From: Capnocytophaga periodontitidis
GTDB lineage: Bacteria; Bacteroidota; Bacteroidia; Flavobacteriales; Flavobacteriaceae
NCBI RefSeq assembly: GCF_016126015.1
Contig: NZ_JAEFDB010000001.1
Location: 372,001-436,000, forward strand
Direction of reading: 5' to 3'
DNA length: 64,000 nucleotides
Part shown: positions 3,401 to 16,495 of the stretch, piece after piece
How the letters are laid out: each line of letters opens with the position of its first letter
Numbering within the stretch: position 1 is the stretch's first letter
The notes under the pieces: model-generated
Seen by the model: only the letters and a program-made list of their open reading frames with translations
Database searches by the model: none
Told to the model about the DNA's origin: nothing
Position numbers and translations under genes: made by a program

Positions 3401-4693
3401 TTAACTTGAAAGATTATTTTCAATGCACTTAGCCAACCGCTCGGTAAGGGCTTTACGGCTGTATTGTTCTACTTCTTTGGGGTTGGTTTTAAGTGTTTTA
3501 TGTAGGAATTGATGATAGAACTCTACTATTTTGGCTTTCATCTGAGAAGCATCGGTATATCCCACAAAAGTACCTGTTTGTGTTTCAGTGAGAATAGGTG
3601 TAACATCCCAGTTATGAGGTCCTATGGCGAGAATAGGTCGCCCTGAAATCATATATTCAAACAGTTTACCCGCAATAATACCTTGTGTTTCTTCGGAATC
3701 TATTTCGATGAGCAACAATACTTGCGATTGCTTTTGCAAACTAATAGCTTCTTGATGGCTAATATAACCTTTATTAATATAATAAGGTGTAAGTCCGTTA
3801 TGGCGAATATCTTCTTCGATTTCTTCACTTACTTTGCCTGCAAAACAAAGTGTGAAATCTTCGGCAAAATGAGGTTCTTCGCGTATTAATTCGGCTAATA
3901 TTTTCCACAGTATTTTGGGGTTTCTATCTGATAATAAAGAACCTATGTGCGAAATAAGGAATTTATTGGATAGGGGAGGGGTGATTGTTTTTTCCTCATC
4001 GTAACCATTGGTAATCACCTCAATAGGAGTATTGGTAAGCTGCTGAAAGTCTTTTTGCGTCTTGAAACTGGTTGTAATCACCAAGTCTGATTGTTGTAAC
4101 ACTTCTTTTTCCCAATAATGCTGACGTTTATCTGCCCATTTAGTAAGGCGTAAATCTTTGTAATAACCAATAGTTGTCCACGGGTCGCGGAAATCGCTAA
4201 TCCATTTGAGGTGAGGAATTTGTTTCTTTAACTCATAACCTATAAGGTGTACGCTGTGGGGAGGCGAAGTAGTGATAATAGTTTCTATCTGGTTTTCTTT
4301 TATAAACTTATTCAGATACTTTATAGAAGGTTTTATCCAGAATTTACGAGCATCGGGAATAAAGAAATTACCACGTATCCAAAGTAATACTTTATCTAAA
4401 ATAGAAACTTTTTTGCGCGGAATGATACCCGAACTAATCTTTTGGGTTTTCTTTTTAGAGAATAACGAAGCCCAAGCATAAGGTTCCCATATAGGATGTT
4501 TAATAATTTGTATATCAGTAGGCAAATCGTTTCCTATTTCATTGTCGATGATAGGATAAGTTGGGTTTTCAGGAATATATACAATAGGTTCTATATTAAA
4601 ATCTCGTAAATATTTTACGAATTTTAACCAACGTTGTACACCAGGTCCGCCAGCAGGCGCCCAATAATAAGTGATGATAAGTACCTTTCTCAT
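3401..4693 (-). CDS. GT4-like glycosyltransferase
   Basis: 430 residues with a GT-B layout. The N-terminus has YYWAPAGGPGVQRWLKF, typical of flavobacterial glycosyltransferases that begin with a GGxGVQR nucleotide/sugar-acceptor loop. The C-terminal half has the donor-binding region AGKLFEYMISGRPILAIGP, including the conserved Glu of the E-x7-E-like motif. It probably transfers a sugar from a nucleotide-sugar in surface polysaccharide, O-antigen or glycoprotein synthesis. It stands between comM and mnmA without an obvious polysaccharide cluster, so the acceptor cannot be inferred. Confidence 0.85.
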   Translation of the reverse strand: MRKVLIITYYWAPAGGPGVQRWLKFVKYLRDFNIEPIVYIPENPTYPIIDNEIGNDLPTDIQIIKHPIWEPYAWASLFSKKKTQKISSGIIPRKKVSILDKVLLWIRGNFFIPDARKFWIKPSIKYLNKFIKENQIETIITTSPPHSVHLIGYELKKQIPHLKWISDFRDPWTTIGYYKDLRLTKWADKRQHYWEKEVLQQSDLVITTSFKTQKDFQQLTNTPIEVITNGYDEEKTITPPLSNKFLISHIGSLLSDRNPKILWKILAELIREEPHFAEDFTLCFAGKVSEEIEEDIRHNGLTPYYINKGYISHQEAISLQKQSQVLLLIEIDSEETQGIIAGKLFEYMISGRPILAIGPHNWDVTPILTETQTGTFVGYTDASQMKAKIVEFYHQFLHKTLKTNPKEVEQYSRKALTERLAKCIENNLSS

Positions 4694-4759
4694 ATCTTTT
4701 TCCCTATCTGTTATTTGACATAATATACATTATAACCATTTTACAATAGGTGTTTTTTC

Positions 4760-5953
4760 CTATGAAATAACACCGCTACCCACTAATTCATCTCCGCTAT
4801 ACCAGGCAGCAAATTGTCCCTCAGTAATAGCACTTTGAGGTTCTGAAAAATGAATATACAAACCGTTTTCGACTTTATATAAAACCGCTTTCTGTAATGG
4901 CTGACGATAGCGTATACGTACCATAAACTCTTTCGATTCATATACTTTTAATGCCAAATCTTCGCGAATCCAATGTTCATCAGGGGCTGCGATAAACAAA
5001 GCACTGCGGAACAATCCGCGATGAGTGTGTCCTTGTCCCGTATAGATGATATTCTTCTCAATATCAGTTTCTATGATAAACAAAGGTTCTTTAGTTCCTC
5101 CCACATTTAAGCCTTTGCGTTGCCCTTTAGTAAAATAATGAGCCCCTTGATGGATACCTACTTTTTTACCGTCTTCGGGACGATAAACAAAACGTTGTGA
5201 CAAATACTCCAATTCGCCTTCATAAGTTTCAAAAGTGCGTGGCATATCAAAGTCAGTATATCCTTTCCAATCATTGGGGATTTCAATAATATCGCCTTGT
5301 TTGGGTTGTAGTTTTTGTTGTAGGAACTCGGGCAAACGCACTTTTCCTACAAAGCAAAGTCCCTGAGAATCTTTTTTATCAGCGGTTATCAAATCTTGAG
5401 CTTTGGCAATGGCTCTCACTTCCGATTTCTGCAATTCTCCAATAGGGAAAAGTACTTTACTGAGTTGGTCTTGTGAAAGCTGACATAGGAAATACGATTG
5501 GTCTTTATTTTTATCTTTCCCCGATAGCAATCGATAGATTTTTTCACCATTTATCTCTATTTCTTCTTTGCGACAATAGTGTCCTGTTGCTACGTAATCG
5601 GCGACTAAACTAAGGGCAAGCTTCATAAAGACATCAAACTTGATTTCGCGATTACATAACACATCGGGATTGGGCGTTCTACCGTGTTCATATTCATTGA
5701 ACATATAATCGACAATACGGGCTTTGTAGGGTTCACTCATATCCACTGTTTGGAATGGAATACCGAGCTTTTCGGCTACTAAAAGCGCATCGTTACTATC
5801 TTCTAACCAAGGACATTCGTCGGAAATAGTAACTGAATCATCGTGCCAATTCTTCATAAAAAGGCCTATTACCTCATAACCTTGTTCTTTTAACAAATAG
5901 GCAGCTACACTACTGTCTACCCCTCCGCTAAGTCCTACTACTACTCTTTTCAT
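4760..5953 (-). CDS. mnmA: tRNA 2-thiouridine(34) synthase MnmA
   Basis: 397 residues. It has the N-terminal PP-loop [13 protein letters not shown] (residues 9-21) that adenylates U34 of tRNA, the CNREIKF segment with the first catalytic Cys (near residue 102) and the SQGLCFVG segment with the second (near residue 200). Together these two Cys pass the persulfide sulfur to the base of tRNA Lys, Glu and Gln. The C-terminal beta-barrel domain follows. The start is 1 base after the gldG stop, so it is the last gene of a gldF-gldG-mnmA operon. Confidence 0.97.
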
Positions 5954-5954
5954 T

Positions 5955-7643
5955 TTATCCTCTCTTTATGTTCTTCTTCCTATAAAAATATAATACTGAT
6001 AGCATTACCAATATCAAAAGCAATAATGGATACACAAATACTTTTACTTGCCAACTGCTGGCACTTTCGGCTACTTTTTCCTTATCTAAGAAAGCCAATT
6101 GTACTTTCTTATTACGCAAACTCAAAAACTCAGTATCGTCTAAGAGGTAGTTTAAAGCATTCTGCAAGAATGCTTTATTATCATAATATTTGTTTGTCCA
6201 TTTATCAAATCCGAGTTCTAAGGGAATATTATTTTTGCTATCTATATCGTTTTTGATAATATCGCCATCAGCCACTACAAGCATTTTAGTAGGTTTGCTT
6301 CTATCAGCTTTTTCTTTAAGGTCTATGGGACGAATACGGTCTTTATAAACTGAGTTAAACTCTCCTTCCAAAAGCACTGCTAAGGGAATATTTCCGTGTT
6401 TGTAGGCTTCTTTATTCTGGTTATTGGGGTCGAAGCGCAAGTTGATTTCGCGTGGGGTGCCATCTGCTTTTGAGAAAGGTGAACTAGCGAGAAGCACTGT
6501 TTTCTTCACACCATTTTTCAGCGTATCAATGCTATTGGCAAACTGAAACCTGACGGCATCTAAATGATTGTTGATAAGGTGATTATTGCCTGAAATCACC
6601 AGTGGATTATACACCCAAGGAATAGGCATATAACGGGTTTGAGAACCATCGCCTGTGGCTACAATGATTTCAGAAAAGTACAAATCGTTTACCAAAGTGT
6701 AATTGATACGGAAACCATATTGGAAAAACATATCAGTAAGGTTTAGATTGACGGGCATTGCCATTGTCATTCCACCTGTTTTGTACATATCTTCTAAGGA
6801 AACCGCTACATTGTCAATCAGCCATAGAGCACGACCGCCATTCATTATATACTGGTCTACGACCTGTTTTTGGGCATCGGTGAAAGGCTCAGTAGGCTTA
6901 GGTACGAGTAGTAAATCGAATTTTTCGAGGTCGTGTAGAGTCTTCTCGGGGTTGGTAGCCACTGAATCGAGGGTGAAAGGTGCTATAAAGTAGTATTCGC
7001 GCGCTGTTTTGAGGAAGTCGGCCATATAGATATCTTTCAAAGCACCATTACTTCTGAGCACTGCGATTTTCTTCTTTTTATCTAAGGCAAACTTATAGAG
7101 CGCATCGGTAAAATTGTATTCCAATTTCTGTACTGAGTTCTGTACCTGCTCTTGGTCGGTAGAGCCGAGTTTGTTCACAAAGAGACGAACGCGCTCACTC
7201 TTCTTACCATCACTAATGACTGCCCACGGGAAAATATACTCAATAGAAGATTTTCCCGCTTCATTTTGAGTGATTTGCAAGGGCTGGTAGCCATTATTTA
7301 TCAGTTCTTGAATCACACTTTCGGGGTGCTCCTCCCCTTCTAATGGATTTACAAAATTGACGATAATGTTGTTATTGGCAACAGCATACTCGTCTAATAA
7401 CTGAATTGTTTCAGTCTGTAATTTCTTAAATTCGGTAGGGATATTGCCTTTGAGCAATACATCAATCACGATAGGATTCTGTATTTTAGCAAGTGTTTTC
7501 TTGCTCACCTCCGAGAGCGTATAACGTTTGTCTTGAGTGAGGTCTATCCGCGTGTGCCATTGTTTGGCTATATAATTAATTGCAAGGAGGCAAACTAAGG
7601 CTATAACTACCTTGCTAATAGAGTTTTGAAAGAGTTTTTTCAT
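5955..7643 (-). CDS. gldG: Gliding-motility ABC transporter auxiliary protein GldG
   Basis: 562 residues. One N-terminal membrane segment (about 12-26) is followed by a long periplasmic ABC-type auxiliary region beginning [15 protein letters not shown], a hallmark of GldG, and a second membrane segment near the C-terminus (about 536-555) followed by a basic tail. With GldF and the ATPase GldA (not in this window) it forms an ABC transporter required for gliding in Flavobacterium johnsoniae. The start codon overlaps the gldF stop (ATGA), showing translational coupling. Confidence 0.95.
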
Positions 7644-8359
7644 CGTTTGTAGGCTTTGAGTGATAAGGTAGTGAGATATATGAAAAATGAGATAACAGAG
7701 AGGAAATACACGATATTTCGGGTGTCAAGCACTCCCCTACTGATAGCATCGAAATGCGTTTGGAAGCCTACCCCACCAAAATCTTCGGGGGCTACAAAGG
7801 CAATAAGTTGGTCGATACCAAAGAAGAAAAAGAAGCACAGAAAGGCCGCTAACACAAAGGAAATGATTTGGTTACTACTTATAGACGACGCCCATAAGCC
7901 TACTGAGGCAAAAGTGGCTACCAGCAAAAACAAGGCAATGTAAGACCCTACAGTGCCAGCTATATCTAAGTTGCCTACGGGGTTGCCCAACACCCATACC
8001 ATATAGACGTACAGGGCTGACGGCAAAAGGATTACAAAGAGTAAGAAGAGAATACCCAAGTACTTGCCGAGCACCATTTGCAGGGTGCTGACCGGTTTGG
8101 TGAACAAAAGGGCTAACATACCGCTTTTTTTCTCTTCGGAGATGCTTCTCATCGTAATGGCGGGTACTAAAAAGACGAAAACCCAAGATGAAAGCCTAAA
8201 AAAAGGCAACATATCGGCGAAACCAGCATTGAAAATGTTGTAATCTGTTTTAAAGACCCATAGGAACAAGCCGTTGAGCACGATAAAGAGCCCAATGATA
8301 GTAAGACCAATGGGCGAAGTGAAGAAATAACGAATTTCTTTTTTGAATAGTGCGTACAT
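7640..8359 (-). CDS. gldF: Gliding-motility ABC transporter permease GldF
   Basis: 239 residues from the ATG at 8359, which begins MYALFKKEIRYFFTSPIG, the typical GldF N-terminus. An in-frame extension upstream to 8443 has no family resemblance. Six membrane helices are expected; RSISEEKKSGMLALLFTKPVS lies in the cytosolic loop shared by ABC-2 type permeases. It is the membrane partner of GldG and precedes it with an ATGA overlap. A promoter at 8441-8470 gives a leader of roughly 75 bases. Confidence 0.95.
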   Translation of the reverse strand: MYALFKKEIRYFFTSPIGLTIIGLFIVLNGLFLWVFKTDYNIFNAGFADMLPFFRLSSWVFVFLVPAITMRSISEEKKSGMLALLFTKPVSTLQMVLGKYLGILFLLFVILLPSALYVYMVWVLGNPVGNLDIAGTVGSYIALFLLVATFASVGLWASSISSNQIISFVLAAFLCFFFFFGIDQLIAFVAPEDFGGVGFQTHFDAISRGVLDTRNIVYFLSVISFFIYLTTLSLKAYKR

Positions 8360-8440
8360 TTTTATAGTTAAGAGGTAAGAGATAAAAGGTAAAGAGTTGT
8401 GAATGTAACTTACCTTTATTCTTAGCGATTTTTCAGAGGG

Positions 8441-8470
8441 CAAAAATACAAAAATAAAATAACACTACAA
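8441..8470 (-). promoter_or_regulatory. Promoter of gldF-gldG-mnmA
   Basis: Minus strand: TTG at 8468-8470, a 19-base spacer, then TATTTTTG at 8441-8448, fitting the Bacteroidota consensus. It separates the gldFG operon from the SPFH/bactofilin-like operon that ends at 8486. Confidence 0.5.
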
Positions 8471-8485
8471 CAAAAAAGAGTAAGA

Positions 8486-9451
8486 CTACTTATTTAACTG
8501 TGAAATATCAAACTTGCCATCAATATCTTGAACACTTATTTTTCCATTGAGAATATCAAAAAAGAAGTCACGGATTTTATTAAGAGTAAGAGTTGCTGCA
8601 TTACCATTTTTATCTACTCCTAAATCATAAGTTTTGAGAAGCTGATCTCCTAAACTTGCTGCAGCAAGTAAGAAATGGTTTTCAAACTTATCGGTATCTA
8701 TCAAATCTACAGCTAATACTTTGCCTACAACAGTATAACTGCGAAGAGTTTTCTGTATTTCGTTATTTACAAGAGTGCTTTTTACCTCGTCGGTTTCAAT
8801 ATCCATTGTTATTTTTCCTGAATTAGGTGTTTGCGGTAATCCTTTGTAGAGAGCACCTAAATCGGCTAAACTGAGGTTGTATAGTTGTGCATCGGCAGTA
8901 GCAAGCATTTTTTCTATAGAAAAAGCACTTGGAAGTAATAGATACACAGATCCTTCTATACGTATAGAAGGAGTGTTGAATGTGCCAACCACACTGTTTT
9001 TCAAGTCTATTTGTTGAGTAGCGAATACTCCTCCACACACGACACAATTATCTAACACAATTTCATCGGCATAGATGCTACCTGCTATAAAAGCATTGTA
9101 AAGAGTTACGCTTTTAGCATTGATGTCGGAATGAAATGTAAGTTTTAATTTATCAGCTCTTGAAACAATAGAGTTAGCAGACCCTACACTTTTTTGGAAA
9201 GCTACATTTCCTTGAGCTTCACTATTCACATAGAGTTCTAATTGAGTAAAGACGGCACCTTGAATTTCTAAGTCTCCATTTTGTATTTCGAGTTTATGGG
9301 CGTATACAGGGCCTTCTATCACTGTATCTCCTTGTACTGTAATGGTACGAGTGAGCTCTGCTACTTTTTCAGGTAATATGCTTCCTTTTACTAAATTGTC
9401 CTTTAGTTGTATATTGTTTTCGTTAAACCGAATTTCTTTTAATTCTTTCAT
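8486..9451 (-). CDS. Bactofilin-like beta-helix protein
   Basis: 321 residues. Residues about 30-170 are a run of short beta-strand repeats (for example TVIEGPVYAHKLEIQNGDLE and SIYADEIVLDNCVVCGGVFA) with regularly spaced hydrophobic residues and Gly turns. This pattern is typical of right-handed beta-helix, polymer-forming (bactofilin, DUF583-like) domains. The C-terminal 150 residues form a separate mixed domain. No signal peptide. It is the last gene of the SPFH operon, 18 bases after the preceding gene. I infer that it forms a cytosolic scaffold or polymer; the family assignment rests on pattern only. Confidence 0.6.
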   Translation of the reverse strand: MKELKEIRFNENNIQLKDNLVKGSILPEKVAELTRTITVQGDTVIEGPVYAHKLEIQNGDLEIQGAVFTQLELYVNSEAQGNVAFQKSVGSANSIVSRADKLKLTFHSDINAKSVTLYNAFIAGSIYADEIVLDNCVVCGGVFATQQIDLKNSVVGTFNTPSIRIEGSVYLLLPSAFSIEKMLATADAQLYNLSLADLGALYKGLPQTPNSGKITMDIETDEVKSTLVNNEIQKTLRSYTVVGKVLAVDLIDTDKFENHFLLAAASLGDQLLKTYDLGVDKNGNAATLTLNKIRDFFFDILNGKISVQDIDGKFDISQLNK

Positions 9452-9469
9452 TATAAGGTGATTTTATGG

Positions 9470-10492
9470 TTATATACATTCTATTTCATTGAGTTGTAGC
9501 ATTTTTAAAATATGAGCTTTCACTCGTGAACTATGCTCATCGATATTGGAATAACGATTATCTACTTCAATGTTGAAATACCTTTCAATCTGTACGGTGT
9601 TTTCTTCAGGTAATTTATACCAATTCTGCTTCAAAAAGTTATCTATAAGCTCATTTGTTGGCATCTGAGGAATAAACTCTTGTTGATATAGCTTTTTATC
9701 TATTTGTTTTTGTTCATTTTCCGTTTCTATAAAACAAATAGGAGTGTATGCTGTAGCATTTTTGCTTTCTTTTAGCATATTTAGGTTGATAAGCTCTTCT
9801 AACTGTTTTTGTTTTTGCAAAAAAGTATTAACCTTTTCAATAGTATCAAGTGCTCTTTTTTTGGCTACTGAAGCACTGACTTGCGCTACTAATTCAGCTT
9901 CCTCTTTGGCAAAAATAGTTACAGTACTCACTAAATCGTTCTCACAAGCACGATTGTTTTGTTGATTGCTTTGTTTGCTGAAAGTAAAGGCAGGTTTATT
10001 CAGTTCATATATGCGATTAGAGAGTTCATTATTCAGATCTTCAAAAGTTTTTAAATAGCGTTTAGCAATGCTATTGTAATCTCTTTCCATCTGCTTTTGC
10101 TTCTCTACACAACGTTGGGCAAGTCCGCGCAAATGTATGAGCGTTGCATCAACTTGTGATTGTAGTTCTGCTATTTGCTGAGTAATTTCTGAACGGATTG
10201 TACTGAAAAAACCTTTAATGATGGCACCACTTACTTTTTTAGCATTGGTATTTATTGAAGCTATTTGAGCAACTTCGGTAGCTACAACAGCTTCTGTAAG
10301 TCCACCTACCGATTGGTTACAATCATTGATACTTTTTTCAAAAGGATCTGTATCTACTTCTACATTTACCTCTATTTCCTCAGTTACAGTGCCACTGTAA
10401 CTTACACTACCTCCATTTTGTGAAGGGCCATACGACACACTCCCTGAATAGGGAATCCTCACGGTTTTTCTAATGGTTTTAGTATAACTCAT
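9470..10492 (-). CDS. Coiled-coil protein A of the SPFH operon, unknown
   Basis: 340 residues, soluble. Residues 1-50 are rich in Ser, Gly and Thr with alternating beta-type sequence (SVSYGPSQNGGSVSYSGTV). Residues about 50-165 are mainly helical and coiled-coil, with TQQIAELQSQVDATLIHLRG and QMERDYNSIAKRYLKTFEDL. The helical block clearly matches the next gene upstream (10495-11415): both have QIxxLQSxVDxxLxxL, MERxYNxxxxRYLKxFxxxN and ELxxPxFxF in the same order. The two are paralogues separated by 2 bases. No known family recognised. Confidence 0.7.
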   Translation of the reverse strand: MSYTKTIRKTVRIPYSGSVSYGPSQNGGSVSYSGTVTEEIEVNVEVDTDPFEKSINDCNQSVGGLTEAVVATEVAQIASINTNAKKVSGAIIKGFFSTIRSEITQQIAELQSQVDATLIHLRGLAQRCVEKQKQMERDYNSIAKRYLKTFEDLNNELSNRIYELNKPAFTFSKQSNQQNNRACENDLVSTVTIFAKEEAELVAQVSASVAKKRALDTIEKVNTFLQKQKQLEELINLNMLKESKNATAYTPICFIETENEQKQIDKKLYQQEFIPQMPTNELIDNFLKQNWYKLPEENTVQIERYFNIEVDNRYSNIDEHSSRVKAHILKMLQLNEIECI

Positions 10493-10494
10493 AG

Positions 10495-11415
10495 CTATTC
10501 GTTTTTAATGGTTTGGAAATGAGTTGCTGTAAAAAGTTTGTTAGCCATATCTTTCACTCGTTGTGAGGTATTGCTAGTTGCAAGCATCTTACTAAATTCA
10601 CTTTTTACTTCTTGGTGAGGCTCGCAGGCATCATTCCATACTAATTGTTCTAAGTGTTGATTTAGTATATTTTTCATTGCTGATTGTACAGAGGCGTTAA
10701 GTTGTTCTTTACAGACAATTACTTCAAGTTTTTTATTATCAAAGCTGTCGAAATTGGATTCACATACTAAGATAGGTATAAGTAATGTTGTATTTTGAAC
10801 TTTTTCATTTTTTAGTAATACACGTTCTGATAATTTTTTTTGCTCAGAAGTATTCGCTAAAAAGTTAGTCATTGACTCAATCACTTTTTCTGCACGATAT
10901 TTTATATTAGATATTACAATCTGCTGACTTGTAATGAGTGATTCTAACTGAGAAATAGGTACTGTGGCAGCTAAGTATTTAGTTCTATTTGATACTTTTT
11001 CTACTTCTTGAACTGCAAAATTAAACACAGGACGGTCAAGTTCTAAAATGCGTTGTTTGAGATTTTGGTTTATTTCGTTGAATAGTTTTAAATATCTGTC
11101 AGAAAGCATATTGTAATTGCGTTCCATACGATTTTTAATTGCTAAGAGTTGTTTGCGCTGTGTGTTGAGTTGCATCAGTTGTGAATCGACTTCGCTTTGT
11201 AGTTTTGCTATTTTTTGAGATATTTGGGAACACATAAGGGTATAAAATCCTCTGTTTACATTTCTGCATACCATATCAGCTGCTTGTTGTTCAGCTAAAA
11301 CTATAGCAGCTTTCATTGCTACCACGGCTGTGGTAGTGTCATTTATCTGATAGGAGACAGATTTTATTTCTTCTGCCATTGGTTGGGTGTCTACTACACA
11401 ATCAATTCGAGCCAT
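10495..11415 (-). CDS. Coiled-coil protein B of the SPFH operon, paralogue of its neighbour
   Basis: 306 residues, no signal peptide or membrane segment. It contains SQISQKIAKLQSEVDSQLMQ and RMERNYNMLSDRYLKLFNEI (residues about 65-120), colinear with the same block in the 340-residue product just downstream, so a tandem duplication is likely. The C-terminal half is divergent. It starts 12 bases after the 615-residue gene. The long helices suggest an oligomeric or filament-associated role; this is inference. Confidence 0.7.
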   Translation of the reverse strand: MARIDCVVDTQPMAEEIKSVSYQINDTTTAVVAMKAAIVLAEQQAADMVCRNVNRGFYTLMCSQISQKIAKLQSEVDSQLMQLNTQRKQLLAIKNRMERNYNMLSDRYLKLFNEINQNLKQRILELDRPVFNFAVQEVEKVSNRTKYLAATVPISQLESLITSQQIVISNIKYRAEKVIESMTNFLANTSEQKKLSERVLLKNEKVQNTTLLIPILVCESNFDSFDNKKLEVIVCKEQLNASVQSAMKNILNQHLEQLVWNDACEPHQEVKSEFSKMLATSNTSQRVKDMANKLFTATHFQTIKNE

Positions 11416-11427
11416 AATTCTATAGTT

Positions 11428-13275
11428 TTATTTGTTATTACTGAAATTATTCAAATTGTTGAGTGCATTTTTAGCTATAGCAGGTAAGTTTAATGAAATG
11501 TGTTCAAAAGTAACTTCCTCTACATTAGGCACAGGTGGTAATTCAGATGTTTTAGCAAAAAGTGGATTTACAAGAGCAAGAGGTCTTCGGCGATTGTCTA
11601 AGTCATGCACTTCATTAGTAGCTACCGCTATTTCATTAGAGTACCCGTCGCGCAATTTAGCATCGTAATACTCTATATGTCCAAACTTCATAGCTTTGAG
11701 TTCTATATCCTCTTTTAGGCGTTCCATATATTCCTCGAAGTTATCTTGTATTGTTTTAAATTCTTGAGATTGCATCTCAAAAGCAGCAAGAGTTTCAGCT
11801 GAATTGTCGGTTACATTCACTACTGCACTGTTTAAGTTATCTTCTGTTTGTATCATACTATCTTCAGTGCGTTGGTAAGAAATCAAAGTGTTGTATTCAG
11901 CTACGTATTTTCGCAAATTTTCTTGCATTAAGTTGATGATATCGGCACTTTCCAATCGGTTTGAGCGATAGAAAGCTTCGGTATCTTTATGCCACTCATT
12001 TAGATAATGTGTTTTTTGGTCGTGAATATGATTGTAGATTTTGAGGCGTTCCAATCGGTTTTCTTGCATTAAGTTTTGTACCATAGGAGCTACAATTTCT
12101 TCATAGATTTGATGTACTCCAAAAGGAAGATTGGTAGTGCTACCATCTTCTGCAGTCCACATTCCTGAAGTTAGGTTGTAATACACACGAGAACTCTGTT
12201 TTAGATGGAAAGGAATGTACTCTTGTACAGATTCGCTATAATCAAACTTCTCATTGCGAATACGTTCTATTTCTTCGTGTTCTAAAATAGGTGAATAATG
12301 ATTATAAGGAGATTTCAAGAGTTGATATAACACTTTGTTAGAAGTAGTAATCAATTTGTTAGCTGAAGCTACTTTCAGTGCTGAAATAGCTTGTACAGAA
12401 GTAGCTATAGTAAGCATCAAACTCTTTAATATATTTTCGAATTGCTCAGTTTTATTAGATAAAGAATCTCTTAGTTGATTGATTTCCTGAAATTTGTTGA
12501 TACTATCGGCATATCGTTCTTTGTTGAAAACAGGAATTATAACAGCACCCTGTGGAACATTATCGGTGGCATATTCATTCAGGTAAGCTAAATACTCGCT
12601 CTTATTAGCTACTAAAGGCAAAGATACTGAAGTAGTGTTCAAATCATCCACACAATAGGAAATGGTACGCAATGAACGTTCTAAACTTCCAAAATAATCG
12701 TGTTGATTGATTTTTTGGAATGAAGTAGAGTATTGGTCAGTTTCAATAGTTTCAGTATCGTAAGAAGTTTCTACTATAGGAGCTTGTTCTGATAGTTTTT
12801 CAAGTTTTTCAATGGTTTCAATTAGTAAATCGTTTTGACGAGGGATTTGAAGTACAACTTCAGATTCGTCTACTTGTCCTGTATAATCTACTATAAAACT
12901 TTTATCAGTGTATTTTATTTGTTCAGCAATAGGAACATAGGCTAAACCAAGTTTGGTTACTTTGTAATCTCTAAAGATTTCGCTATGTTGTTTCTTGAAC
13001 TCAGCAATACGTATTTCTTTGTCGGCAATTTCTTTTTCAAGGGTATTTTTTTTAATATAATACACAAAGAAAAATATTAAGGTGAGAAACCATACCCAAA
13101 GTCCATCCATTTGTTTTTGCAACATTGTTTTTTCTTCTTCCAAAATTGCAATTTGTTTTTCGATACGTTCCTCTTCGGCTACTATTTTTTCAGCAGCTGC
13201 ACTATAATAATCTAATAGTACTTTAGCTTGATCGTGATAGATACTATCGGATTCTGAAAAGATTTTTCCTAACAT
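11428..13275 (-). CDS. Large membrane-anchored coiled-coil protein, unknown
   Basis: 615 residues. The N-terminus has a helical coiled-coil (about 20-52, rich in Glu and Lys: KIVAEEERIEKQIAILEEEK), then a single strong membrane segment (about 58-75, LWVWFLTLIFFFVYYIKK), then a second charged helix and a long, mostly helical soluble part. There are no catalytic motifs that I recognise. The gene lies in the centre of the SPFH operon (12-base gaps on both sides). It probably anchors the operon's proteins at the cytoplasmic membrane; this is inference. Confidence 0.7.
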   Translation of the reverse strand: MLGKIFSESDSIYHDQAKVLLDYYSAAAEKIVAEEERIEKQIAILEEEKTMLQKQMDGLWVWFLTLIFFFVYYIKKNTLEKEIADKEIRIAEFKKQHSEIFRDYKVTKLGLAYVPIAEQIKYTDKSFIVDYTGQVDESEVVLQIPRQNDLLIETIEKLEKLSEQAPIVETSYDTETIETDQYSTSFQKINQHDYFGSLERSLRTISYCVDDLNTTSVSLPLVANKSEYLAYLNEYATDNVPQGAVIIPVFNKERYADSINKFQEINQLRDSLSNKTEQFENILKSLMLTIATSVQAISALKVASANKLITTSNKVLYQLLKSPYNHYSPILEHEEIERIRNEKFDYSESVQEYIPFHLKQSSRVYYNLTSGMWTAEDGSTTNLPFGVHQIYEEIVAPMVQNLMQENRLERLKIYNHIHDQKTHYLNEWHKDTEAFYRSNRLESADIINLMQENLRKYVAEYNTLISYQRTEDSMIQTEDNLNSAVVNVTDNSAETLAAFEMQSQEFKTIQDNFEEYMERLKEDIELKAMKFGHIEYYDAKLRDGYSNEIAVATNEVHDLDNRRRPLALVNPLFAKTSELPPVPNVEEVTFEHISLNLPAIAKNALNNLNNFSNNK

Positions 13276-13287
13276 ATTTTTGGTTTT

Positions 13288-13998
13288 TTAAATTGAATAG
13301 ACTGATTTTCTGTTTTGATATAACATTTCCATTTTTTTTAGATGATTTTCAATGGTTGTTGTATTGTACTTATAATTACTGATAACGATTAACATATTGT
13401 TAGCTTCTTGGCAAAAAAGATTTTCTATTTCACGAGCTTCTATTGTATTTGCAGGTGAAATGTATCGCAAGTTTTCATTTAAAGAATTAATTCGGTGTAC
13501 AAGATTTTCTGGTAAATTGGGGAGTGTACTGATTTGTATTTTTAAATTGTTCATTACTTGTTTCATTTCAGAAACACCTGACCTAATACTGTTTTCAGAG
13601 ATAGGCACCTCCCCTACTCTATCGGTTGCTGATAATACAGCAATCATACCTAAAATTAGTAAGAAAATAAGGATTGCTTGTATAACGAATTGCAGGACAA
13701 AGAACCAACTGAAGAATATATTAGCACATAACATTACTCCTATTGCAGCAAAGGCATAAATCCAAGTGAAAAACCATCTTACTCCCAATGAACCTACTTC
13801 AATAGACTGTTGTTTTCCTAAACGTATACAAGGGAAGAGTACGTCAACAAAAAATAAGGCATAGACTAATGAGGCTACTACAATATTTAGAATAAGTATA
13901 TTCGTAGCTAAATTTGTACCCAATAACAGAAAGGCTGTTATCAACAATATTTCACCTAAAACTAAGGCTATTAATGATAATTTTCGACGTGTATTCAT
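13288..13998 (-). CDS. Multi-spanning membrane protein of the SPFH operon
   Basis: 236 residues. Four membrane helices fill the first 130 residues (about 8-30, 33-55, 75-98, 100-125). The C-terminal 110 residues are soluble and helical, with SEMKQVMNNLKIQISTLPNL and a predicted cytosolic bundle. No known family recognised with certainty. It lies 29 bases after the SPFH gene and 12 before the 615-residue gene, so it is tightly co-transcribed. Association of small multi-TM proteins with SPFH/zinc-ribbon genes is known from the Bacillus ydjG-ydjH-ydjI group, which is the closest analogy I can offer. Confidence 0.7.
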   Translation of the reverse strand: MNTRRKLSLIALVLGEILLITAFLLLGTNLATNILILNIVVASLVYALFFVDVLFPCIRLGKQQSIEVGSLGVRWFFTWIYAFAAIGVMLCANIFFSWFFVLQFVIQAILIFLLILGMIAVLSATDRVGEVPISENSIRSGVSEMKQVMNNLKIQISTLPNLPENLVHRINSLNENLRYISPANTIEAREIENLFCQEANNMLIVISNYKYNTTTIENHLKKMEMLYQNRKSVYSI

Positions 13999-14027
13999 TT
14001 TGTTACCTATTATTTGTTTGATGAATA

Positions 14028-15227
14028 TTATCGTTTATTCCCACATTTTGGACAAAACTTTGCTGAAGGAGGGAATACAGTTCCACAACGATTACAAACA
14101 TCGGCTATAGTTTGCTCAGGAGTAGTATTGTTTGTTTGTTGTAATTGGGTGCCACAACTCACACAACGCTTGGCATTAGTATCGTTGTCGGCACCACAAT
14201 TAGGACAAGGATTGTAAGGATTGCCACAATGAGGGCAAAAACTACTATTACTTGGATATTTTTTCGCACAATTAGAACAGAAAACCATTTTTATAGGAGC
14301 TTGTTCTCCTTGTTGTTCTCCTTGTTGATTACCTCCAAAAGTAGGTTGGTTATACTGAGGTTGCATCATTCCTCCTGCCATTCCAGAATTATTCATACCT
14401 CCTATCATACTCATTGCCATTAATCCTCCTAATAAACCTCCATTGCCATTTCCGAATCCTTCAATCGCATTGTTGGCAGTATTGAACATTTGCTCTTGTT
14501 GCCAAGTGTGTCCTGTAATTGACATTGAGGCTTGGGTAGCAATCGCCTCAGCTACCTTTCTACCTTCTTCAGTAGATTTATCAATATCGATATTAGTGAT
14601 ATTGAATTGAAGGAGTTCTAAACCTAAGTTCGTCCAAAAAGGATTGAGTACATTTTTGAGATAGCCTGATAATTCATCTAAAAAAGCTGAAATATATTTA
14701 TACCCTACCCGATGTTTGATAACATATTGGGCTATTTGTGATTTTGTTTTAGTAGAGAATTCTCCAAAAAATTGATTTGTAAGGTCATCTTGTGTAAATT
14801 CAGATTTTGTGCCTACAACTTTAAGGAGGAATATTTCGGAGTCGTTTACTTTCAAACCATATCTACCAACGGCTACAAGGGGTAATTGGGTGTTATAATC
14901 AGGGTCGTGTATGGGCATTCCACTCACATTCCAATCAATACTAAACGATTGAACTTTGTTTACGAACCATACTTCTGCAGTAAAGGGATTTTTTCCTCCG
15001 AAAGGAATTCCGAATAAATTACGCAAAATGGGTATATTTTCAGTGTTGAGGGTGTACTTTCCAGGTCCAAATTTTCCTATGATTTGCCCTTTAGAAAACA
15101 ATACAGCTTCTTGAGATTCTTGTACAATTAGTTGGGTATAAGTAGCTAAATTAGTTTCGGGGAATTTCCAAGCATAAACGACTCTACTACCTTGAGGAGA
15201 CCAGCTCACGACATCAATTATAGCCAT
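14028..15227 (-). CDS. SPFH-domain protein with three C-terminal zinc ribbons (YdjI-like)
   Basis: 399 residues. The N-terminal 230 residues form an SPFH/band-7 type domain of the virion-core-like YdjI group, with LIVQESQEAVLFSKGQIIGK and FGPGKYTLNTENIPILRNLF. A Gly/Met/Gln-rich linker (about 255-315) follows. The C-terminus carries three double-Cys ribbons: CSNC with CPHC, CPNC with CVSC, and CNRC with CPKC, so three zinc sites are expected. SPFH proteins assemble in rings or microdomains at membranes; B. subtilis YdjI acts with PspA in envelope stress. It is the first gene of a six-gene operon. The MAIIDVV start is standard for this group. Confidence 0.85.
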   Translation of the reverse strand: MAIIDVVSWSPQGSRVVYAWKFPETNLATYTQLIVQESQEAVLFSKGQIIGKFGPGKYTLNTENIPILRNLFGIPFGGKNPFTAEVWFVNKVQSFSIDWNVSGMPIHDPDYNTQLPLVAVGRYGLKVNDSEIFLLKVVGTKSEFTQDDLTNQFFGEFSTKTKSQIAQYVIKHRVGYKYISAFLDELSGYLKNVLNPFWTNLGLELLQFNITNIDIDKSTEEGRKVAEAIATQASMSITGHTWQQEQMFNTANNAIEGFGNGNGGLLGGLMAMSMIGGMNNSGMAGGMMQPQYNQPTFGGNQQGEQQGEQAPIKMVFCSNCAKKYPSNSSFCPHCGNPYNPCPNCGADNDTNAKRCVSCGTQLQQTNNTTPEQTIADVCNRCGTVFPPSAKFCPKCGNKR

Positions 15228-15274
15228 AATCTTTAATGTTTTTTGTTATACACTACTACATTATTATTACTTTG

Positions 15275-15282
15275 CAAAGGTA
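15275..15282 (-). promoter_or_regulatory. Candidate -7 box upstream of the SPFH operon
   Basis: Minus-strand TACCTTTG lies about 48 bases upstream of the SPFH start. No good -33 TTTG is seen at the usual 19-21 base spacing, so the promoter may be weak or activator-dependent. Confidence 0.35.
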
Positions 15283-15643: not shown

Positions 15644-16495
15644 TTATTTTTTTAGTAGCCTTCCAATAGTTTCTTTGTAAACATTTGGTACTACTATTCT
15701 GTAATTAGCAATAGTTTCTTTGAGTTTAGTAAGCTCTGCAGTCTTTTCTACAACCAAAGCATTTACTTTTGCTTGACGTTCTTGTAACAAGCATTGTAAC
15801 TCTTGTTCATATTGCAATTTACAATTGTTCTGGTAAGTACGGAATTGTGTTTTATAGAAGTTTACTTCACTTTCGTACTCACGATGTTCAGCCAGAAGCT
15901 GTTCTTGTAACTGTTGTAGTTCAGAGAGTTCGTACAAAGGAGTGTTTTTAACCTTGAAGACTTGCTCGCCTACTTCTTTAAAGGTAATAAGTTCTTTTTT
16001 ATTGAGTTGGTTACGTACCTCATCAAAATTATGAATGTATTTTCCTATATGAGCAGCTTTAGCTTCTGCCTCTTTATAACAAACCATATCTTCTAAGGAA
16101 AGAGTTTTGAGATAATCGTCGATAGTCACGTTTTTAAGCAGATTGAGCGGTTCATAATCAATAGGTTTAACCTCCTCTTCAGCTTTGACAAGTATTTCGT
16201 TTAGTTTTTTGTTGACTATTTCTAAACGATTATCTTTTTCTTTGATAGCCGATCGTAAATAAGCTGAAATGGCATATAATGAGCCGATTTCATTGAGTTT
16301 ACCACCTATATCATCTACCTTTGTGAAAGTATCTAAAGGTTCTCCATCAATGCTGGAGGTATGAGTTTCAATAGAGCTAACAAGATCTTGAATGGGTTTT
16401 AGTCGTTCTTTAATACGCTCACATACATAATTAGCCTCTGAGGATGTAAGCCCAGAGACATTAAAATACGGATTTTTAGTTGCTAAATATTTCAT
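15644..16495 (-). CDS. Coiled-coil protein, unknown, possibly linked to the SPFH operon
   Basis: 283 residues, soluble and strongly helical. Residues 195-265 form a long coiled-coil (ELQQLQEQLLAEHREYESEV onward), and several shorter helices precede it. No catalytic motif. It starts 11 bases after galM and so is probably read from the galM promoter. Downstream, 416 bases separate it from the SPFH gene on the same strand. Its length and helical character resemble the coiled-coil proteins of that operon, so it may belong functionally to them; this is only inference. Confidence 0.65.
   Translation of the reverse strand: MKYLATKNPYFNVSGLTSSEANYVCERIKERLKPIQDLVSSIETHTSSIDGEPLDTFTKVDDIGGKLNEIGSLYAISAYLRSAIKEKDNRLEIVNKKLNEILVKAEEEVKPIDYEPLNLLKNVTIDDYLKTLSLEDMVCYKEAEAKAAHIGKYIHNFDEVRNQLNKKELITFKEVGEQVFKVKNTPLYELSELQQLQEQLLAEHREYESEVNFYKTQFRTYQNNCKLQYEQELQCLLQERQAKVNALVVEKTAELTKLKETIANYRIVVPNVYKETIGRLLKK

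Follow-up and report, generated by a model that had tools for sequence, protein, structure and literature searches.

A six-gene SPFH/zinc-ribbon module of Bacteroidota as a candidate membrane scaffold without PspA

The described system closest to the locus considered here is found in Bacillus subtilis, where, according to the available part of one report, YdjI lacks a membrane anchor, bears a zinc finger at its C-terminus, shares its operon with genes for two membrane proteins and recruits PspA to the membrane jointly with YdjG and YdjH, which are membrane proteins; the same source describes the flotillins FloA and FloT as having an N-terminal membrane anchor (PMC8581546). The pairing of a vWA protein with an FtsZ-like (Tubulin_2) protein has been ascribed to a membrane-remodelling system in the available part of another report (PMC2875224). 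Here we describe a module of six same-strand open reading frames (ORFs), named A-B-C-D-E-F in the order of transcription, at positions 8486-15227 on the minus strand of a 64,000-nucleotide stretch of a Capnocytophaga (Flavobacteriales) genome (G000, contig C1, positions 372001-436000; this whole stretch is referred to below as the window). The SPFH hub of the module is of a known kind, unlike the rest. B, C, D and E, four of its six families, fall below every curated cut-off searched, and the gene order is kept in distant Bacteroidota lineages. The set looks undescribed, as a literature search with most subscription papers outside its coverage found no published description of it and, in line with an initial annotation made from the letters of this DNA, no name for it.

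Conservation and distribution of the gene set

The evidence that the six genes form a real module, with the anatomy collected in Table 1, is solid. All six ORFs lie where the initial annotation had placed them and, with intergenic gaps of 29, 12, 12, 2 and 18 bases in the order of transcription, make up one operon-like unit. Further loci were collected by scanning short patterns derived from C against one genome per species (84,980 species), which gave 35 matches and 9 confirmed loci, and by whole-genome searches, the additional loci being fetched with their flanks. The resulting 30 distinct loci comprise the window, L005-L013, L039-L050, L052, L053 and L067-L072; L051, which duplicates the C. 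sputigena locus, and G668, a genome in which C is split over two contigs, are excluded. The contiguous order A-B-C-D-E-F is kept in 22 of the 30, a count that includes both the window and L005, the near-identical locus from C. sputigena, as well as L045, which has an in-frame stop in C; contig ends cut six loci (L006, L008, L013, L046, L048 and L053), L013 retaining B and having a frame break in C besides the contig cut; and L049 and L050 hold C-D-E-F without A or B alongside. When F was used as bait in 344 genomes of the order Bacteroidales, eight matched, seven with a full-length F and one with a 38-residue fragment at a contig end. A-E adjoin all six newly fetched full-length copies, the seventh F being that of L011; the fragment (genome G803, locus L073), with no A-E ORF beside it, was not counted. 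A D-E fusion in L053 was ruled out, the two lying in separate frames.

Leaving L005 apart, identity to the window proteins is 53-79% for A, 22-43% for B, 57-75% for C, 39-60% for D, 34-53% for E and 54-78% for F, B being the most divergent member and B and E the fastest changing. The C gene is 97% identical in a C. sputigena contig, and ratios of nonsynonymous to synonymous substitution rates (dN/dS) of 0.044-0.191 between the window and L005 indicate purifying selection on all six genes. The genes do co-occur beyond close relatives, in Capnocytophaga and in Muribaculaceae, a point on which the initial annotation had staked its proposal.

The distribution of the module is patchy, its carriers being scattered among mouth and gut bacteria. 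With C as the query, it was found in 3 of 20 genomes of the genus, in the window's own genome alone among 395 of a phylum sample, and in 2 of 148 of an order sample, namely the window's own genome and G079, which we discount as a chance match to an alpha-amylase-like ORF. A sample of the family of genome G536 (Muribaculaceae; Bacteroidales) gave 18 of 247, four of them already known from the pattern scan, and the order of G538 gave 1 of 201, G538 itself. No relative of C or E was confirmed in viral contigs, and none of C, E and F was found on plasmids.

A tree built from A, C, D, E and F groups the Capnocytophaga copies with the Bacteroidales locus L069 (supports 99 and 100) and nests this group in a clade of support 100, otherwise made up of copies from the family or order of G536 or from metagenome-assembled genomes labelled Porphyromonadaceae; the tree is rooted on L013, an incomplete outgroup with C, F and part of E missing from the data set. 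Since the Capnocytophaga copies thus lie inside a G536-type clade, the module has probably crossed between orders by horizontal transfer; if the root lay on the Capnocytophaga branch, no transfer would be needed, and movement of the module is supported anyway by its patchy presence and its differing sites. Its neighbour is gldF in the window, L005 and L051 but not in L052, where it lies at another site. In genome G523, the 94% identity to the window reaches base 8457, just before gldF, and then stops, and the module site carries a PLD/SNF2-helicase gene and a type-IIG-like methyltransferase gene. The site upstream of gldF is variable in Capnocytophaga (about 8443-8486 in the window; 8900-15470 in L098), with several gene contents among the 20 genomes of the genus. 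No transfer vehicle was apparent, there being neither a tRNA gene in the window nor a long repeat at the module edges, and no mobile-element gene was recognised inside the six-gene unit from the ORF list or by Pfam. An imperfect, A/T-rich inverted repeat of 18 nt (83%; arms 8466-8483 and 15233-15250) stands just outside the module ends and, as one of 26 such pairs, is probably due to chance.

Components of the module

Protein A matches Band_7_1, the type to which we take YdjI to belong, at 2.7e-35 and 122.3 bits against a Pfam cut-off of 24, and Pfam also confirms the three zinc ribbons with which it had been annotated, while hydropathy gives it no hydrophobic segment and so no membrane segment of its own. 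CxxC motifs number six in the window and L005 and eight in the other 23 of the 25 A proteins counted. The SPFH gene found 16 kb from the C-D-E-F cluster in genome G638 was set aside as a member of another gene set; that other set (L102 4967-8979), as judged by eye, consists of the SPFH gene, then a small membrane protein and then two proteins whose N-termini look zinc-ribbon-like.

Hydropathy agrees with the topologies first proposed for B and C, the window B having three merged hydrophobic regions that amount to about four helices and C one hydrophobic stretch at about residues 55-75. The AlphaFold2 (AF2) model of C is usable for little outside residues ~30-100. The C-terminal tail of C is almost absent in the window, L005, L049, L050 and L052; tails elsewhere are rich in the residues D and E, up to 60% in L067. 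In L071 (C at 9231-11615) the tail carries LEM-like repeats, the whole protein scoring 26.6 bits against a Pfam LEM cut-off of 24 with no single repeat passing, and in L070 (C at 9320-11728) it carries three zinc ribbons (Pfam 5.4e-15), as if the tail were an exchangeable adaptor. LEM-like tails in L041, L068 and L069 and an L12-like tail in L039 were impressions gained by eye that Pfam did not report, and the L12-like one was dropped.

D and E are paralogues, as had been supposed, with a profile-profile (hhalign) E-value of 2.6e-47 over 292 columns. None of B, C, D and E matches an established family above the cut-offs of Pfam or NCBIfam, the second point on which the initial annotation had been willing to be judged; the best weak Pfam match among the four is Tad8 in E (0.0012, 19 bits against a cut-off of 27). 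PADLOC and PHROGs likewise yield weak matches only: in PADLOC, a library without curated cut-off, E matches ZorA3 at 8.2e-6 (over its coiled coil) and at 0.0062, D matches ZorG3 at 0.013, and B has no match. The profiles of B, C, D and E are all unlike three PspA proteins, D and E included. The Pfam family PspA_IM30 has no match in the module, in G000 or in 18 genomes of the same genus, in a search that was positive in 9 of 14 controls and, within the order, in 3 further genomes.

F had been annotated as a bactofilin-like beta-helix protein, and the beta-helix part of that description is supported. The AF2 model is a beta-helix (mean predicted local distance difference test score (pLDDT) 74, predicted template modelling score 0.78) with 19 strands in residues 7-216 and block-mean pLDDT of 87-97 across residues 41-170, and the matches of low root-mean-square deviation in a structure search with this model are beta-helix proteins. 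By the Pfam cut-off F is not a bactofilin, its match to PF04519 (E 2e-4, 22 bits) lying below the gathering score of 27.9. A bactofilin match at E <= 0.01 is seen in 9 of 20 F members, and the F profile has a weak match to Bactofilin A in the PDB (E 0.013); profile-profile comparison with six bactofilins gives a probability of just 2-3%, and no solved bactofilin is among the structural matches listed for F. A separate bactofilin over the cut-off is encoded elsewhere in the genome (G000:C53). As the initial annotation had remarked, no catalytic or NTPase domain is recognised in any of A-F.

The consensus of the Bacteroidota -7 promoter element is TAnnTTTG, a motif that occurs in the 150 bases preceding A in 12 of 25 loci (the window and the near-identical L005 both counted), against 1.8 expected by mononucleotide shuffling. 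A 283-aa ORF (15644-16495, minus strand), which lies on the strand of A and 416 bases upstream of it, matches no family above cut-off; its position is kept in C. sputigena (L005 and L051), and it is not regarded as part of the module, as it has no tblastn match at L006-L013 or L039-L054 other than L051. Upstream of A in other loci, a P22-portal-like gene (L010 6022-7266; Pfam 2.7e-9) stands next to the module, and a portal look-alike, judged by eye only, lies some kilobases away on the reverse strand in L044.

Table 1. Features of the module and its surroundings in the window
Feature	Positions	Strand	Description	Basis
A	14028-15227	-	First gene; 399 aa; SPFH (Band_7_1) protein with three C-terminal zinc ribbons	ORF call, Pfam, hydropathy
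B	13288-13998	-	236 aa; multi-transmembrane protein (about four segments) with a ~100-residue tail	ORF call, hydropathy
C	11428-13275	-	615 aa; N-terminal part long and helical, with one hydrophobic stretch (~55-75); conserved body; tail at the C-terminus variable among relatives	
D	10495-11415	-	306 aa; probably coiled coil; paralogue of E	
E	9470-10492	-	340 aa; paralogue of D with an additional ~40-residue Ser/Tyr/Gly-rich N-terminus	
F	8486-9451	-	321 aa; predicted beta-helix (residues ~7-193); conserved but poorly modelled C-terminal region; distant bactofilin resemblance	
TACCTTTGC	15274-15282	-	Fits the Bacteroidota -7 promoter element; 55 bases before the start of A	Motif match
Edge of shared DNA	8457-8458	.	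Edge of the DNA common to the sister genome G523, which is without the module	94% identity over 4001-8457, none beyond within the compared stretch

Possible function of the module

The reading that we favour, and hold tentatively, is that the module encodes an SPFH scaffold anchored in the membrane, which would work like YdjGHI-PspA of B. subtilis while doing without PspA, probably for the protection of the envelope. On this analogy, A would oligomerise through its SPFH domain into a ring or patch at the cytoplasmic face of the inner membrane and would be kept in place by C and the integral protein B, much as YdjI depends on YdjG and YdjH; D and E together would fill the place that PspA has in Bacillus, supplying the polymer; F would contribute a beta-helix filament or platform; and the zinc ribbons of A, together with the tail of C where there is one, may bind a lineage-specific client. 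Such a complex would stabilise or partition the membrane under envelope stress, and its action would be structural, given that no member has a recognised catalytic or NTPase domain. The scaffold reading is supported by the gene order in 22 of 30 loci, by the presence of A-E beside every full-length F among the 344 Bacteroidales genomes, by the YdjI-like A, by the absence of a PspA_IM30 match from the module and its genome, by the beta-helix model of F, by the dN/dS values and by the neighbours of the module in L011 (15083-21821), where a vWA-like gene (23.4 bits, just under the cut-off of 23.8) and a Tubulin_2 gene (6.2e-49) lie directly downstream, followed by a papain-family protease gene.

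Several points weigh on the other side. D and E have no profile similarity to the PspA whose place they would take. Tubulin_2 stands beside one locus only: the tubulin-like protein of L011 has no tblastn match in L039-L050, L052 and L053 (L067-L072 lay outside that search), PF13809 is over its cut-off in one of six module genomes searched and in none of those of L007, L009, L010, L012 and L013, and the ORFs beside the module in the window are neither Tubulin_2 nor vWA but of other kinds. A appears dispensable for at least part of the function, as C-D-E-F stand without A and B in L049 and L050 and the A profile finds no match anywhere in G744, the genome of L049; in that of L050 the sole match to this profile is a more distant SPFH gene 16 kb away. 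The patchy presence of the module would fit an accessory or defence function equally well. With somewhat more reserve still, we put forward the picture in full, that of a novel, mobile and enzyme-free Bacteroidota membrane machine in which an SPFH ring anchored by two membrane proteins would carry a D/E coiled-coil polymer and a bactofilin-like beta-helix filament, C having an exchangeable, client-binding tail and the six-gene unit having been passed between orders.

The main rival, which we think rather unlikely, is an anti-phage module whose membrane-anchored SPFH scaffold would sense infection, perhaps through the C tail or the zinc ribbons, and would act through the fast-changing B. Presence in 3 of 20 genomes of the genus and a variable site, filled in G523 by helicase and methyltransferase genes, leave room for a defence role, as do the fast change of B and E and the company kept by several loci: a type II restriction-modification pair upstream of the module in L052, separated from it by a single ORF; a CARF-HEPN (Csx1/Csm6-like) gene about 1 kb upstream in L011 (5558-6952, minus strand); and a DNA cytosine methylase gene downstream in L049 and a PDC-S01-like gene downstream in L010, each with at least one ORF between. 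However, the PADLOC matches (ZorA3 and ZorG3) are weak only, no effector enzyme is recognisable and dN/dS gives no sign of diversifying selection. A scan of 123 flanking ORFs (up to three per side, 120-1000 aa, five loci left out) returned mixed families, with housekeeping ones among the 25 listed of 113 Pfam families, and, having no control flanks, decides neither for nor against an enrichment of defence genes.

Less probable again is a cytoplasmic organiser or tether that would fix a nucleic acid or protein client to the membrane through the variable C tail. The score of the L071 protein as a whole over the LEM cut-off, the zinc ribbons of L070 and the D- and E-rich tails elsewhere all accord with it, but the tail cannot be the core function, being nearly absent in the window and four other loci (L005, L049, L050 and L052), and Pfam does not report the resemblance to LEM seen by eye in the tails of L041, L068 and L069. 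A neutral or selfish accessory cluster without shared function would explain why most of the genomes searched are without the module, and we judge it very improbable in view of the conserved order, the purifying selection on all six genes and the lack of any recognised mobile-element gene inside the unit. If the scaffold reading is right, an SPFH/zinc-ribbon hub can join quite different polymer partners, and the module would offer a compact system for asking what bacterial SPFH assemblies do; a module serving defence would represent a system absent from present lists and lacking any recognisable enzyme.

Relation to known systems

The module shares an SPFH domain with the flotillins FloA and FloT; unlike these, A is without a hydrophobic segment and hence without an N-terminal anchor of its own. 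Bactofilins (PF04519), of which polymerisation without nucleotide is a feature, are approached by F in its predicted beta-helix and its weak Pfam and PDB-profile matches, whereas the window F falls below the cut-off, has an additional C-terminal region within its 321 aa and reaches only the 2-3% given above in profile-profile comparison. The FtsZ-like/vWA remodelling system, as described in the available part of PMC2875224, is echoed by the Tubulin_2 and vWA-like genes that adjoin the module in L011, but this is a single adjacency. Archaeal Meth_adaptin loci, compared by description only from the available part of PMC10936438, also place an SPFH protein and a zinc ribbon, in their case with a coiled coil, in a multi-gene, membrane-related locus. 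Among known anti-phage systems, PADLOC 2.0.0 gave no credible match of A-F.

The comparison with pspA-ydjGHI, which the initial annotation had already drawn as the nearest analogy, stands for A, which is of the YdjI kind; a PspA-like partner is absent, as had also been claimed. The differences are that the module and its genome are without PspA, that D and E are dissimilar to it and that F is additional, and B and C are likened to YdjG and YdjH by their equivalent place and membrane nature. The likeness lies in A, a Band_7_1-type SPFH protein which has no membrane segment of its own, ends in zinc ribbons and shares an operon with membrane proteins, much as is described for YdjI in the available part of PMC8581546.

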